From Actinoplanes italicus (lineage in GTDB: Bacteria > Actinomycetota > Actinomycetes > Mycobacteriales > Micromonosporaceae), in NCBI RefSeq assembly GCF_003001815.1, contig NZ_PVMZ01000009.1, forward strand, positions 186,001 to 250,000: a DNA stretch of 64,000 nucleotides, written 5' to 3'. Below, one piece after another: positions 9,093 through 13,656 of this stretch. The position numbers and the translations under genes are program-made. Under the pieces are notes generated by a model. The model was not told the origin of the DNA. It saw only the letters and a program-made list of their open reading frames with translations, and ran no database searches. How positions within the stretch are numbered: the stretch's first letter is position 1; each line of letters starts with the position of its first letter.

Positions 9093-10610
9093 ATGGTGCG
9101 TGCCGGGCGTACGGTCAACGTGGCCTTCGTCTTTCTCGCCGCGGTGTTCGCCGTCGGATACCTGCTCGGAAGCGTGCCGGTCCGGACCGGGCTGATGCTG
9201 CTCTCCGGGATCCTCGCGGCCGTGGCGATCGCGGCCGGCATGCGCTGGCACCGGGTGACCGACCAGCGGCCGTGGGTGCTGGTGATCATCGCGTTGCTGC
9301 TGCTCACGGTGGGCAATGCCGGCTGGTTCATGGCCGCGCTGCTGCGTGACGGCGGCACCCCGCCGGACGTGCTGGTGGTGCCTCCGCAGCTCGGCGGCTA
9401 CGTGTTCATGCTGGCCGCGAGCCTGATGATCGTGATCCGGCACGCACCCCGCGACGCCGGGGGCACGATCGACGCCGCGGTGTGGGGTGTGGCGCTGGCC
9501 GCACCGGCGTGGGAGTTCCTGTTCCGGCCGAACCTGCTGCGCGGCGGCATGGGGATCGCCGGACAGTTCCTGGTGCTGACCCAGCTGCTGGTGCTGCTCG
9601 GCATCTGCGGCGCCCTGCTGCGGGTGGCCCGCGCCAGTTCCGCGAGCCGGACCTGCCTGAACTACCTGTTCGCGTCGCTCGGCCTCACCATCCTGGGCAC
9701 CGCCATCGTCAACATGGGGCCGGCCACCGGTGAGGCGGGGTCGCTGCCGGCGCTCTGCTTCGCGATCGGCTACCTGAGCCTCGGTGCGGCCGGGATGCAC
9801 CCGAGCGTCAAACACCTCAGCGAGCCGGTCACCCGTCTCGGCGGGCCGATCCCGAAGATGCGTCTCGGCATGCTCGGTTCGGCCCTCGTGCTGATCCCGG
9901 TCTGCGGTGGTCTCGGCCAGCTGCTCGGGCAGCCCGCCGACGGGCTGCTGCTCACCGTCGCGCCGCTGCTCAGCATCCCGCTGGTGCTGGTCCGGATCAG
10001 CCGGCTCAAGCACGCCCTGCTCTACCAGGCCACCCACGACGAGCTGACCGGCCTGGTCAACCGGCGCCGGCTGTTCACCGAGATGCACAAGGCGATCGCC
10101 GCCCATGCCGGCGGCGCTCCCGGAGATCTGGCGCTGATCTACTGCGACCTCAACGGCTTCAAACCGATCAACGATGAGTACGGCCATGAGGCGGGCGACG
10201 CGATACTGCGCGCCACCGCCACGCGGATCAGCGACGCGGTCCGGCCCGGGGACGTGGTGGCCCGGATCGGTGGCGACGAGTTCCTGATCTTCGGAGCGGA
10301 GGCGGACGACGCCACGGTACGGGCCATCGGCGACCGGGTGGCGCGGTCCATCGCCGCGCCCGTCACCTGGAACGGGCAGACGCTCCAGGTGACGGCCGCG
10401 GTGGGCACCGTCACCTGGACCGAGCGTCGCCTCGTCGCGCCGGACGATCTGCTCGCGCGGGCCGACGAGCGCATGTACGCCGACAAGCGCTCCCGGTCAG
10501 CGCAGCGCGGGCAGCACCTTCGCGCCGAACGTCTCGATGAACGGCATCAGGTCCTGCCCCACGTGGTGCAGGTAGATGCGGTCGAAGCCGAGAGCGGCAT
10601 AGCCTCGTAG
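9093..10610 (+). CDS. Membrane diguanylate cyclase (multi-TM plus GGDEF)
   Basis: A 505-residue protein made of about eight hydrophobic helices (residues 8-300) and a C-terminal GGDEF domain. The active-site motif is intact (RIGGDEFLIF), and RPGD five residues before it is an RxxD inhibitory I-site, so it should make cyclic di-GMP from two GTP with product inhibition. ATG 9093 is chosen because the hydrophobic segments begin just after it; GTG 9096 is an alternative. There is no recognisable sensory domain other than the membrane part. The last 38 residues are basic, unlike normal GGDEF ends, and are encoded antisense to the end of the convergent luciferase-like gene (114-bp overlap). Confidence 0.85.
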   Translation: MVRAGRTVNVAFVFLAAVFAVGYLLGSVPVRTGLMLLSGILAAVAIAAGMRWHRVTDQRPWVLVIIALLLLTVGNAGWFMAALLRDGGTPPDVLVVPPQLGGYVFMLAASLMIVIRHAPRDAGGTIDAAVWGVALAAPAWEFLFRPNLLRGGMGIAGQFLVLTQLLVLLGICGALLRVARASSASRTCLNYLFASLGLTILGTAIVNMGPATGEAGSLPALCFAIGYLSLGAAGMHPSVKHLSEPVTRLGGPIPKMRLGMLGSALVLIPVCGGLGQLLGQPADGLLLTVAPLLSIPLVLVRISRLKHALLYQATHDELTGLVNRRRLFTEMHKAIAAHAGGAPGDLALIYCDLNGFKPINDEYGHEAGDAILRATATRISDAVRPGDVVARIGGDEFLIFGAEADDATVRAIGDRVARSIAAPVTWNGQTLQVTAAVGTVTWTERRLVAPDDLLARADERMYADKRSRSAQRGQHLRAERLDERHQVLPHVVQVDAVEAESGIAS

Positions 10611-11453
10611 CCGTTGCACGTGCTCCTCCAGGTCGGCGGAGATGTTCACGACCTTCGCCACCTGCTCGACCGTGACATTTTCGGACACGACGTCGAACTC
10701 CTCGGCGGTCGCCAGGTCCCAGCAGACCGGCGGGGCGAAGATGTTGCCGCGCCACTGGTCGTACGCGATCTCCTCGGCCTGCTGCTGGGTCGGCGCCCAG
10801 CTCAGGTGCACCTGCAGGCAGATCGGACCGCGGCCACCGGCTCCCCGGTAAGCGTCGATCATCGCGCGCAGGTGGTCCTCGGGCGCGTTGACGGTGGCCA
10901 GGCCGTCGGCCCACTCGGCGCACCAGCGGGCCGTCTCGACGCTGACCGCGGCGCCGATCAGGGGCGGGGTCACCTCGGGACGTGTCCAGAGCCGGGCCCG
11001 GTCGACGGTGACCAGGCCGTCGCGGGACACCTGTTCGCCGGCCAGCAGGTCACGGATGACCTCGACGGACTCGCGCAGGCGGGCGTTGCGGACCTCCTTG
11101 CGCGGCCACTTGCCGCCGGTGATGTGCTCGTTGCTGAACTCGCCGGAGCCGAGCGCCACCCAGAAGCGGTCCGGGAACATGTCTCCCAGGGTGCCGATCG
11201 CCTGCGCGATGATCGCCGGGTGGTAGCGCTGGCCCGGTGCGTTCACCACGCCGAAGCTCAGGTTCGTGGCCTGCAGGGCCGCGCCGAGCCAGGACCAGGC
11301 GAAGCCCGACTGGCCCTGGCGGGCGCTCCATGGCGAGAAATGGTCGGAACACATGGCGGCCTCGAACCCGGCGCGCTCGGCCGCGATCATCGCGTCCAGG
11401 AGCACGCCAGGCCGGATCTGCTCGTGCGATGCGTGGATGCCGTACTGCGTCAT
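10497..11453 (-). CDS. LLM-class flavin/F420-type oxidoreductase
   Basis: A 318-residue luciferase-like TIM barrel. The MCSDHFSPWSARQGQSGFAWSWLGAA region and the FWVALGSGEFSNEHITG segment match the branch that includes F420-dependent glucose-6-phosphate dehydrogenase relatives and the so-called non-F420 flavinoid subfamily. Members reduce or oxidise small substrates with F420 or FMN. The cofactor cannot be settled from sequence alone. The gene is monocistronic, convergent with the diguanylate cyclase gene (overlap 10497-10610), and starts 19 bases from the stop of the copper lipoprotein gene on the same strand, so the two could be co-transcribed. Confident about family, not about substrate. 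Confidence 0.85.
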   Translation of the reverse strand: MTQYGIHASHEQIRPGVLLDAMIAAERAGFEAAMCSDHFSPWSARQGQSGFAWSWLGAALQATNLSFGVVNAPGQRYHPAIIAQAIGTLGDMFPDRFWVALGSGEFSNEHITGGKWPRKEVRNARLRESVEVIRDLLAGEQVSRDGLVTVDRARLWTRPEVTPPLIGAAVSVETARWCAEWADGLATVNAPEDHLRAMIDAYRGAGGRGPICLQVHLSWAPTQQQAEEIAYDQWRGNIFAPPVCWDLATAEEFDVVSENVTVEQVAKVVNISADLEEHVQRLRGYAALGFDRIYLHHVGQDLMPFIETFGAKVLPALR

Positions 11454-11471: not shown

Positions 11472-12632
11472 CTACTCGCTCGCGACGACCAGGATTCCGA
11501 GACACATCTCGTCGCTGGTGCCCTCACCCCACACGACGTACCGGGAGGGCAGCTTCTGCAGCTGTGGCAGCTGCTTGCGCAGCGTCGCGTCGTGGGTGCA
11601 GGTCACCCGTACCGTATCGCCCTTGGCGATCTTGACGGGTTTGGCCAGGGGAAGCAGCGCCTGGTTGTCGAAGTTGTACTGCGGCACGTCGAGCAGGGTC
11701 TGCGCCTTCGGTGTGCCGGGGTTCAGCTCGACCTTGATCGCCCGGCCGAGCAGATGCATGTGCCCGGCCGCCATGTGCACCGTGCCGCCCTGCTCGATCG
11801 GCTGGTCACAGGACTGGGTGTTGCCGGCCTTCGGCGTGCCACCGGCGTTGCACCACTGGTTGAGCTGGTTGACCGTCTCCACGGACTCGGCGCCGAACCG
11901 CTTGCCGACGTCTGCGACCGCGGTGGCCCGGTCGCAGAGCGGCCCGCTGCCGCCCGGCTCGCACGGCAGCTCGATCGGGGCCATCACCAGGCCGGTCTCC
12001 AGCGGCTTGAGGCTCGGCGCGGCGGAGATGCGCATCTGCATGCCGGACGCGTCCGAACCGGGGCCGCCGTCGCCGGAACCGAGCAGGTTGTAGTGCACCT
12101 GCATGACGAGCTTGCTGCCGGGCGGCATCTCGAAGCCGTAGCCGGACGGCATCAGGGTCTCGCCCGCGCCGGGCGCCCAGTGCGCGACCCAGGCGGTCTG
12201 TCCCTGCACGCCGCTGTCACCGAAGCAGGTCCAGCCCTCCCCGGTCGCCTCGGCGTCCACCTTCTCGGCGGCCTTGGCCTGCTCGGGGTCGAGCCGGTAG
12301 AAGATCGCGTGGTGCACGATGGCCGCGTTCTGCGGCAGGAACTGGCTGCCGGTGAGATAGGCGGCCTCGGTCAGTTTCGGGTCGACGAGGAAGCACCGGT
12401 ACTCGTCGGTGCCGCCGTTCGGCGCGGCCGGGGTGTACGGCGTCGACAGCCCCACCTCGACGAACCGCTCACCCTCGCGTAGCGGGCTGGCCGGCGGTGC
12501 CGAACCGGCGCTGTGACCGGTGTGCGGGCTGGTGGGCGGTGGCGCCGCGACCGGTGCCGGATCCTTGGCGCACGCGGCCAGGAACAGCACGGCGGCGAGG
12601 GCGGCGGCGGTAGCGGGACGGGCGAACCTCAT
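11472..12632 (-). CDS. PHM/DBM-like copper type II monooxygenase lipoprotein
   Basis: A 386-residue lipoprotein (signal peptide ending in FLAAC). The fold is that of ascorbate-dependent type II copper monooxygenases, the eukaryotic peptidylglycine alpha-hydroxylating and dopamine beta-monooxygenases. All six copper ligands can be placed: His-His in AIVHHAIFY and His in MQVHYN for the first copper; HxH in GHMHLLG and Met in SDEMCLGIL for the second. Conserved Cys residues (YRCF, WTCF, PLCD, QWCN) suggest structural disulfides. ATG 12632 is chosen over an ATG eight codons upstream because GGGGAGG sits just before it. The bacterial substrate is unknown. It probably works outside the membrane. 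Confidence 0.85.
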   Translation of the reverse strand: MRFARPATAAALAAVLFLAACAKDPAPVAAPPPTSPHTGHSAGSAPPASPLREGERFVEVGLSTPYTPAAPNGGTDEYRCFLVDPKLTEAAYLTGSQFLPQNAAIVHHAIFYRLDPEQAKAAEKVDAEATGEGWTCFGDSGVQGQTAWVAHWAPGAGETLMPSGYGFEMPPGSKLVMQVHYNLLGSGDGGPGSDASGMQMRISAAPSLKPLETGLVMAPIELPCEPGGSGPLCDRATAVADVGKRFGAESVETVNQLNQWCNAGGTPKAGNTQSCDQPIEQGGTVHMAAGHMHLLGRAIKVELNPGTPKAQTLLDVPQYNFDNQALLPLAKPVKIAKGDTVRVTCTHDATLRKQLPQLQKLPSRYVVWGEGTSDEMCLGILVVASE

Positions 12633-12745
12633 GCTGGCCTCCCCAGGGCCGGACAATGGACCGCCTCATCCTCCCAACCGCCGCCCACGGCGGCATATCA
12701 GTGGTAACCCGGACGAGACCCTACGAATGGATCTTCAGGGTCGTA

Positions 12746-13243
12746 TCAGGGTCCCGTCGATCCGGTCAGCGTCGGCTCGGGCGCGGGCTCGGCCGGCACC
12801 ACGTTCTCGACCATCGACGGCGGCGAGCCACTGTCGCGCGCCAGGGTGAAGGCGCCGGCGCAGAACGCGAGCAGCACGAAGGCGGCCACCACGGCGAGCA
12901 CCACCCAGAGCGCCGTCCGCTTCGGCTGCCGCGCGGGCTGCACCGCGGGAGGGTACGGACTTGCCGGGGGGTACGGACTTGCCGGGGGGTACGGCGCGGT
13001 CGGTGGCACCCGGGGCAGGTCGGTCTGTGTATCGGCGGCGGCCACGATGCTCTCCGGGTCGCCGAGACGGTCCAGGATCGTGCGGACCTCGGCCTCGGTC
13101 TGCGCCTCCGACTCGGCCCGGGCGATCTCGATGTGCTCGCGCAGGTCGGCGATCAGCTCCTCGCGACGCCCGGCCGGCAGCCGGCTCGCGGCCCGCTCCA
13201 CCCGCGCCAGGTAGGCGGCGACGAGTTCGTCGGTCTGGGTCAT
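12746..13243 (-). CDS. HAAS-domain membrane protein (PadR partner)
   Basis: A 165-residue protein. Residues 1-70 resemble the HAAS/DUF1700 helical signalling domain (RLPAGRREELIADLREHIE, then DRLGDPESIV). A Pro-rich linker follows with the hexapeptide repeat SPYPPA, encoded by an 18-bp tandem repeat near 12948-13000. One transmembrane helix (about 112-135) and a short outer tail complete it. HAAS proteins are typically encoded directly after a PadR regulator and are thought to help sense membrane stress or control transport. Here the ATG begins one base after the PadR stop codon, so the two are translationally coupled. Confidence 0.85.
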   Translation of the reverse strand: MTQTDELVAAYLARVERAASRLPAGRREELIADLREHIEIARAESEAQTEAEVRTILDRLGDPESIVAAADTQTDLPRVPPTAPYPPASPYPPASPYPPAVQPARQPKRTALWVVLAVVAAFVLLAFCAGAFTLARDSGSPPSMVENVVPAEPAPEPTLTGSTGP

Positions 13244-13244
13244 C

Positions 13245-13583
13245 TCAGAGCTCCGTTCCGAGGATGCGGTCGACGCCGCTGCGAAAGACGACCCACTCGG
13301 TGCGGAAGTGGGTGAGAGCCGCCTCGCCGTCCGGAGTGAGGGTGTAGTAGCGACGGGGAGGACCGGCCGGAGCCTCGCGCCAGGTGGTCGCGATCCGGCC
13401 GTTGCGCCGCAGTCGGGAGAGCAACGGATACATCGTGCCCTCGCTGGTGGTCATGCCGAGGCCGGTGCTGAGTTGCTGGACCAGCTCGACGCCGTAGAGC
13501 TCGCGCTTGTCGAGAAGCGCGAGCACGCAGTACTCGATGGTGCCCCGGCGCAGGGCCGTGGTCAGTGCCGCATCGTCGCTCAC
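13245..13583 (-). CDS. PadR-family transcriptional regulator
   Basis: A 112-residue winged-helix repressor starting at GTG 13583. The core RRGTIEYCVLALLDKRELYGVELVQQL and TSEGTMYPLLSRLRRNGRI segments are the PadR DNA-binding domain, and RRYYTLTPDGEAAL is the wing. Longer in-frame starts to 13652 exist, but they would run through the palindromes at 13590-13610, which are better explained as its operator. It is the first gene of a two-gene operon with the HAAS protein. PadR proteins are usually autorepressed and released by small ligands or membrane stress. Confidence 0.88.
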   Translation of the reverse strand: MSDDAALTTALRRGTIEYCVLALLDKRELYGVELVQQLSTGLGMTTSEGTMYPLLSRLRRNGRIATTWREAPAGPPRRYYTLTPDGEAALTHFRTEWVVFRSGVDRILGTEL

Positions 13584-13589
13584 GCCCAC

Positions 13590-13610
13590 AAGGTACCTTG
13601 CGTCGCAAGG
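13590..13610 (-). promoter_or_regulatory. Palindromic operator for the PadR-HAAS operon
   Basis: CCTTGCGTCGCAAGG (13596-13610) is a 15-bp palindrome, and AAGGTACCTT (13590-13599) is a second, overlapping one. They lie 7-27 bases upstream of the PadR GTG. Tandem overlapping palindromes are typical of PadR autoregulatory sites. No convincing ribosome-binding site separates them from the start. Confidence 0.55.
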
Positions 13611-13656
13611 GATAGGCAAACGAAAAGGGGGCCGCTCCGGCGGCCCCCTCAACTGA

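Follow-up and report, generated by a model that had tools for sequence, protein, structure and literature searches.

The animal enzymes PHM and DBH, which make amidated hormones and noradrenaline, are textbook copper enzymes. They belong to a superfamily with a double jelly-roll core and six copper ligands, three histidines at CuH and two histidines and a methionine at CuM. Long-range electron transfer between the two coppers is still debated, and both open and closed conformers have been described; in the accessible parts of PMC4846438 and PMC6123673, 6ALA (PHM) and chain A of 4ZEL (DBH) are closed conformers, in which the residues of both copper sites come together. Electron supply to another copper enzyme has been studied in Cellvibrio japonicus, where, according to the available portion of PMC8981238, Cbp2D combines c-type cytochromes with a YceI domain that binds ubiquinone, and its X183 haem domain serves to reduce and activate bacterial copper LPMOs. 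In the literature searched, most subscription journals lying outside its scope, we found no publication on a PHM-like bacterial protein of the kind analysed here and no assigned substrate for a bacterial PHM/DBH-type enzyme; the actinobacterial family reported below is without a description in that literature.

The copper lipoprotein gene and its predicted fold

The window, that is, the whole stretch of DNA analysed, comprises 64,000 nucleotides of the soil actinobacterium Actinoplanes italicus (NZ_PVMZ01000009.1, positions 186,001 to 250,000), and all coordinates refer to it. Its reverse strand carries a gene whose product had been described in an initial annotation as a copper lipoprotein with all six PHM/DBM-type ligands; the conserved ligands, the lipobox Cys21 and the PHM/DBH fold bear this description out, and the product is almost certainly a PHM-fold dicopper protein. 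The features of the locus are as follows:

10497..11453 (-), LLM flavin/F420-type oxidoreductase, TIGR03885 (NCBIfam), 18 bp downstream, a neighbour in the close clade only
11472..12632 (-), coding sequence of the predicted dicopper lipoprotein, PHM/DBH fold, 386 aa (ORF listing, Pfam, alignment, AlphaFold2)
11505..11507 (-), predicted CuM ligand M376, motif DEMC (alignment; register with PHM M314 from the structural match)
11754..11762 (-), predicted CuM ligands H291 and H293, motif GHMH, aligned to HTH of PHM and of DBH
11808..11963 (-), inter-domain insert from C224 to C275, four invariant cysteines, helices predicted at 235-246 and 248-262 (alignment, AlphaFold2)
12093..12095 (-), predicted CuH ligand H180, motif QVHY (alignment)
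12309..12314 (-), predicted CuH ligands H107 and H108, aligned to the HH pair of PHM
12513..12524 (-), paired histidines of the disordered linker (H37-T-G-H40), a candidate site for copper collection (alignment, linker statistics)
12570..12632 (-), signal peptide with lipobox LAAC, putative lipidation site Cys21 (sequence, aligned rows)
12638..12644 (-), ribosome-binding site GGGGAGG, 5 nt ahead of the ATG of the copper gene (sequence)
12746..13243 (-), HAAS-domain protein, a neighbour upstream on the same strand (Pfam)
13245..13652 (-), PadR-family regulator, likewise a neighbour upstream on the same strand (Pfam, NCBIfam)
13625..13650 (-), terminator-like hairpin that ends the upstream GH43 gene, close to the start of PadR (hairpin scan)

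The ATG at 12632 appears to be a better start than the alternative TTG at 12656 in the ORF listing, because it fits better with the ribosome-binding site and the lipobox. The signal peptide occupies residues 1 to 21 and the lipobox residues 18 to 21; Cys21 is a cysteine in 77 of the 80 aligned rows, and the lipobox pattern matched 74 of the 79 relatives. A linker rich in Pro, Ala and Ser follows (residues 22 to 50), and the copper core spans residues 49 to 386. Counterparts in the closest named species are 84 to 87% identical to the 386-aa protein. No sigma-70-like promoter was found between 10300 and 13800, where the consensus is uninformative for an actinomycete, and the hairpin scan returned two terminator-like sites against 0.8 expected from shuffling.

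AlphaFold2, run on a 61-row alignment, produced a model with a pLDDT of 85.2 and a pTM of 0.82 that has the double jelly-roll core of the PHM/DBH superfamily. The first 31 Foldseek rows were all PHM or DBH. When VIA-align was used, the model matched PHM (6ala_C) with a Z score of 24.9 at 2.8 Å over 263 residues and DBH (4zel_A) with a Z score of 23.8, within 1.1 Z of PHM, at 2.8 Å over 269 residues. The next fold was PNGase F (Z 8.7); PNGase F and the DUF2961 double jelly-roll proteins, whose relation is discussed in PMC8812541 as far as the accessible text goes, have the same overall fold, but their similarity is far lower (Z 6.9 to 8.7) and, unlike the copper lipoprotein, they have no copper sites.

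Comparison of a predicted structure with PHM had been suggested as a check on the annotation, and its outcome was favorable: the model covers PHM residues 56..324 end to end, with 10 residues separating M376 from the aligned end at 386 and, likewise, M314 from that at 324. Because of this end-to-end match, in which the closed conformers 6ALA and 4ZEL chain A fit best, the copper ligands would be expected to cluster in the fold. Open PHM entries fit the model worse, at 4.3 to 5.4 Å. However, since the model of a haem-fused relative also fits 6ALA and 4ZEL chain A best, the closed-conformer match is not special to the window protein and may be a habit of the predictor.

The two jelly rolls are separated by an insert of 63 to 68 residues (219-285), which contains C224, C233, C261 and C275; in a profile alignment, the corresponding linker of rat PHM is some 40 residues shorter. 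The insert is common to the clade of the window protein, its paralogue, and the secreted stand-alone and haem-fused relatives, and with its four cysteines it sets the family apart from rat PHM.

Copper ligands, substrate pocket and linker

The Pfam C-domain model Cu2_monoox_C matched the protein at an E value of 7.9e-9 (35.6 bits, above the cut-off of 23) and the N-domain model Cu2_monooxygen at 1.5e-5 (25.6 bits, below the cut-off of 30), so that the protein enters the copper type II ascorbate-dependent monooxygenase profile through its C domain alone; no NCBIfam model matched it. As a single sequence it had one clear PDB match, rat PHM (E 4.5e-4), and the 61-row family profile reached PHM at 9e-8 and DBH at 2e-6. 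In an alignment of the window protein with 79 relatives, H107, H108, H180, H291 and H293 were present in all 80 rows and M376 in 78, the other two rows being gaps (an in-frame stop in L036 and a contig edge in L078), and the ligand set of the superfamily is complete. All five histidine ligands of rat PHM align with the copper protein in the profile alignment (HH, QVHY and HxH), and human DBH, which shares the HxHLxGR motif with the copper protein, aligns on the HxH pair. The eight cysteines of the mature domain (80, 136, 224, 233, 261, 275, 345 and 377) are invariant wherever they are covered, and both ligands and cysteines are also kept in 11 haem-fused relatives, five secreted stand-alone relatives and the paralogue. 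The stop in L036 (L036:6923-7954, Acrocarpospora macrocephala) lies ahead of the last copper ligand and represents either a broken gene or a sequencing error.

In the available part of PMC6123673, PHM Q170 and Q272 are substrate-linked glutamines that hold the substrate water network. This pair is kept: Q178 (equivalent to Q170) is found in 80 of 80 rows and Q324 (equivalent to Q272) in 79, with one gap, the latter register being set by the fact that Q272 and Q324 both lie 21 residues before the following cysteine. By contrast, PHM R240, N316 and Y318, which we take to hold the peptide carboxylate, correspond to A289, L378 and I380, and the carboxylate anchor is missing. Position 289 is Ala in 67 of 80 rows, position 378 is Leu or Val in 78 and position 380 is aliphatic in 78, the two remaining rows at each of the latter positions being gaps. 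Because the anchor positions are mostly small or aliphatic, the substrate is probably less polar and without a terminal carboxylate; this loss is not absolute, since two of the 80 rows have Arg at 289. The earlier label "peptidylglycine monooxygenase-like" thus suits the fold and ligands but not the peptide substrate that it implies, and we think it fairly probable that the protein is not a peptidylglycine enzyme.

The claim that there is no eukaryote-like partner domain was correct for the window protein but does not extend to its distant relatives, which do carry a fused c-type haem domain. The protein itself has no PAL domain, the copper domains filling residues 49-386 of 386, and DOMON, the N-terminal domain of DBH and MOXD, was not matched at an E value of 0.01; the signal peptide and a 30-aa linker alone precede the core. 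PHM (the PAM domain; PDB 1SDW, 1OPM and 6ALA) resembles the protein in its fold, six ligands and glutamine pair, but identity is about 20%, and the copper lipoprotein differs in lacking PAL, in its anchor positions, in its helical four-cysteine insert and in its lipid anchor with a His-pair linker. DBH (PDB 4ZEL) is alike in fold and in the HxHLxGR motif; however, the copper lipoprotein is prokaryotic and has neither a DOMON nor a dimerisation domain. As read from the sequence, then, it would not be PHM proper, by its pocket positions and architecture, nor DBH, by its architecture.

Position 347, encoded with C345 in the region of 11590-11595, holds His throughout the lipoprotein clade, whereas all 11 haem-fused proteins have Trp and the five secreted stand-alone members Tyr or Phe; the residue tracks the clades and may reflect one event each.

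The N-terminal linker is disordered in the model (pLDDT below 50 for residues 1-41) and its sequence is otherwise unconserved, yet two histidines with zero to four residues between them occur in 74 of 80 rows. HxxH exactly was present in 62 of the 78 linkers of at least 10 aa, whereas 500 shufflings of each linker gave 7.5 on average and 17 at most. Within 40 residues after the lipobox, HxxH was found in 67 of 77 copper proteins versus 0 of 30 other lipoproteins, and a looser spacing in 73 of 77 versus 1 of 30; the control is small (30 proteins of 23 families, drawn from these loci and from 800 kb of sequence in two genomes), and the copper proteins share a common ancestry, though their linkers are not alignable. 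The three haem-fused lipoproteins do not have the pair. It could be a lineage habit, because it is missing from two basal MAG rows, L067 and L072. The pair may bind copper, a proposal to which we give slightly less than an even chance.

Gene neighbourhood, paralogue and haem-fused relatives

The LLM oxidoreductase gene, 18 bp and not 19 bp downstream as first stated, had been put forward as a possible co-transcribed partner, a proposal that gene-neighbourhood analysis did not sustain. The two genes adjoin in 9 of 79 loci (L003-L009, L066 and L070) and in 13 of 60 genus genomes, all in one close clade whose copper proteins are at least 77% identical. When LLM presence was counted at an E value of 1e-100 or better, 36 of the 60 genomes had both genes, 10 the copper gene only, 12 the LLM gene only and 2 neither, so that co-occurrence (36 observed, 36.8 expected) was independent (Fisher P = 0.71). 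LLM as an obligatory partner was accordingly rejected. Furthermore, the start of the LLM protein has no evident signal peptide, whereas the copper protein has an export signal; the two proteins would therefore work in different compartments.

No conserved neighbourhood of the window's clade was found in the 70 of 79 loci in which the copper gene was called; the simple gene caller used in the survey missed it in L007, L010, L038, L045, L047, L059, L064, L072 and L075. The widest recurrent neighbour family, a merged ATP-binding cluster, occurred in 14 loci at varying places, and the GH43 gene upstream in the window is part of the same close-clade synteny as the LLM gene. The tandem of PadR and HAAS genes accompanies the copper gene only in its nearest Actinoplanes loci. 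A DUF1775 gene, of a family linked to copper, is divergent from the copper lipoprotein gene in three related loci (L030:5773-6720, L043 and L049), and an AA10 LPMO gene lies within a few genes in L022, L043 and L049 (3 of 79 loci).

The genome has a second copy, 53% identical, on contig C16 (L112:9055-10407, minus strand). In 21 paralogue loci, hand-chosen from genus and family matches plus the own locus, a divergent MMPL transporter gene adjoins in 17, a LuxR-type response regulator is near in 20, and a sensor kinase and an OmpR partner are present in 18 and 17, respectively; MMPL of this type was found in none of the 79 loci of window-type relatives.

The copper gene is present in 46 of 60 genomes of the genus and in 97 of 250 of the family, four of the latter by short weak stretches only (G002, G569, G570 and G597). 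Across the phylum, 16 of 396 genomes, the own genome included, matched the family profile and 12 of 396 the Pfam C domain. One small-genome actinobacterium has two secreted stand-alone copies in tandem (L189:6088-9244). Plasmid-borne horizontal spread was considered and set aside: the one such record, from Nonomuraea gerenzanensis, is 11.85 Mb, which is chromosome-sized.

The distant set contained 17 matches in 15 other genomes, of which 16 were intact after a fragment (L190, genome G243) was left out. Eleven of the 16 (L180-L185 and L210-L214) have a CxxCH motif 93 to 118 aa ahead of the copper domain, followed by an MPPW or MPP motif that could supply the second haem ligand. Pfam cytochrome models matched 10 of these 11, all below their cut-offs, L213 having the motif alone; in the structural comparison of a haem-fused model, copper-domain rows fill the list and no cytochrome folds were among the matches listed. 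In 8 of the 11, a YceI domain scored above its Pfam cut-off in front of the haem, and the three without it (L184, L185 and L213) are lipoproteins. This YceI, c-haem and PHM-domain architecture, which occurs in several actinobacterial families, is apparently undescribed. The haem-fused proteins share the six ligands, eight domain cysteines and insert with the window protein, but have a c-haem domain in place of the short linker and Trp instead of His347, and are split from all other family members by a branch with SH-aLRT 100; the tree was rooted at its midpoint and does not give the direction of change. CxxCH was found in none of the 80 stand-alone proteins of the window type, and no gene with a CxxCH...MPP pattern in the 99 flanks covered out of 100 stand-alone and paralogue loci. 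The own genome has two YceI copies, both on contigs other than that of the copper gene, and a search for cytochrome b561 found none there and likewise none in control genomes, which makes it uninformative.

The pairing of YceI with a c-type haem recurs in Cbp2D/Cbp2E, where it serves an extracellular copper monooxygenase, in the part of PMC8981238 available; there, however, haem and monooxygenase reside in different proteins, and the latter is an LPMO. By analogy with Cbp2D, electrons are likely to be supplied through haem in the fused clade; for the window's clade this is a reasonable conjecture. The window's clade may use a different electron donor, since the haem-fused proteins are a clade of their own.

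Proposed function and its alternatives

The protein most likely works like a PHM/DBH-type monooxygenase, and oxygenase activity as such is highly probable. Our overall best explanation, held with reasonable but limited confidence, is a lipid-anchored PHM/DBH-fold oxygenase with another substrate and donor. The lipid anchor would place it on the outer face of the cytoplasmic membrane, where CuH (H107, H108 and H180) would take and relay electrons, and CuM (H291, H293 and M376) would be the site at which O2 binds and a C-H bond is hydroxylated, the substrate being lodged between the two domains. This substrate would be something other than a glycine-extended peptide. A donor other than ascorbate is proposed because in the deep relatives the copper domain is immediately preceded by a c-haem domain; we consider the chances for and against a haem or other non-ascorbate donor to be evenly balanced. 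The His pair, on a flexible linker that sits where the deep relatives have their haem domain, would capture copper.

It can also be envisioned, as a speculative extension that is rather doubtful as a whole, that a prokaryotic PHM/DBH branch draws its electrons from the membrane electron chain and not from ascorbate. In one clade, the fused YceI and c-haem domains would feed the copper sites, perhaps also delivering the substrate, an isoprenoid or a quinone-like compound; in the window's clade, the His-pair arm in the haem's place would capture copper, possibly as a third site, the donor would be a separate membrane protein, and the substrate would be a hydrophobic envelope molecule and not a peptide.

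Loss of catalysis, leaving a lipoprotein for copper storage, scavenging or sensing, would suit a stand-alone protein with an extra His pair and the divergent DUF1775 neighbour in L030, L043 and L049. It is unlikely, since two different copper sites, Q178/Q324 and the cysteines of four disulfide pairs are strictly kept, which is more than storage needs, and the haem fusion in relatives implies electron transfer. A true peptidylglycine hydroxylase, acting on secreted glycine-extended peptides with a product that breaks down either with no lyase at all or through an unlinked enzyme, would have the same fold and ligands and the Q170/Q272 equivalents, and PHM is the best structural and a near-best sequence match; this is a little less likely again, given the residues at the presumed R240, N316 and Y318 positions, the missing lyase domain and a DBH score so close to that of PHM.

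In the PHM reaction, H2O2 can replace O2 and a reductant (PMC6123673, accessible part), and an enzyme acting chiefly as a peroxygenase or oxidase, which would consume or produce H2O2, for instance in aid of copper enzymes that degrade polysaccharides, would fit the LPMO gene in L022, L043 and L049 and the GH43 gene upstream in the window; we judge it very unlikely, since the former is seen in 3 of 79 loci and the latter shares its close-clade synteny with LLM. That the copper protein and the LLM oxidoreductase form a functional pair in one pathway is the least probable alternative: their genes are 18 bp apart on one strand and remain neighbours in 13 of 60 genus genomes, but they adjoin in only 9 of 79 wider loci, occur independently, and encode proteins for different compartments, the LLM protein having no evident export signal.

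For the preferred reading, a lipid-anchored oxygenase with another substrate and donor, the new leads are the haem-fused relatives and the His-pair linker. A family that keeps the whole copper apparatus, changes the pocket and has haem-attached relatives would give a small, spectroscopically tractable bacterial system in which to study the entry of electrons at CuH and to ask if catalysis takes place in the closed state. Its study would also reveal the bacterial role of an enzyme that is ancestral or sister to those of hormone amidation and noradrenaline synthesis.
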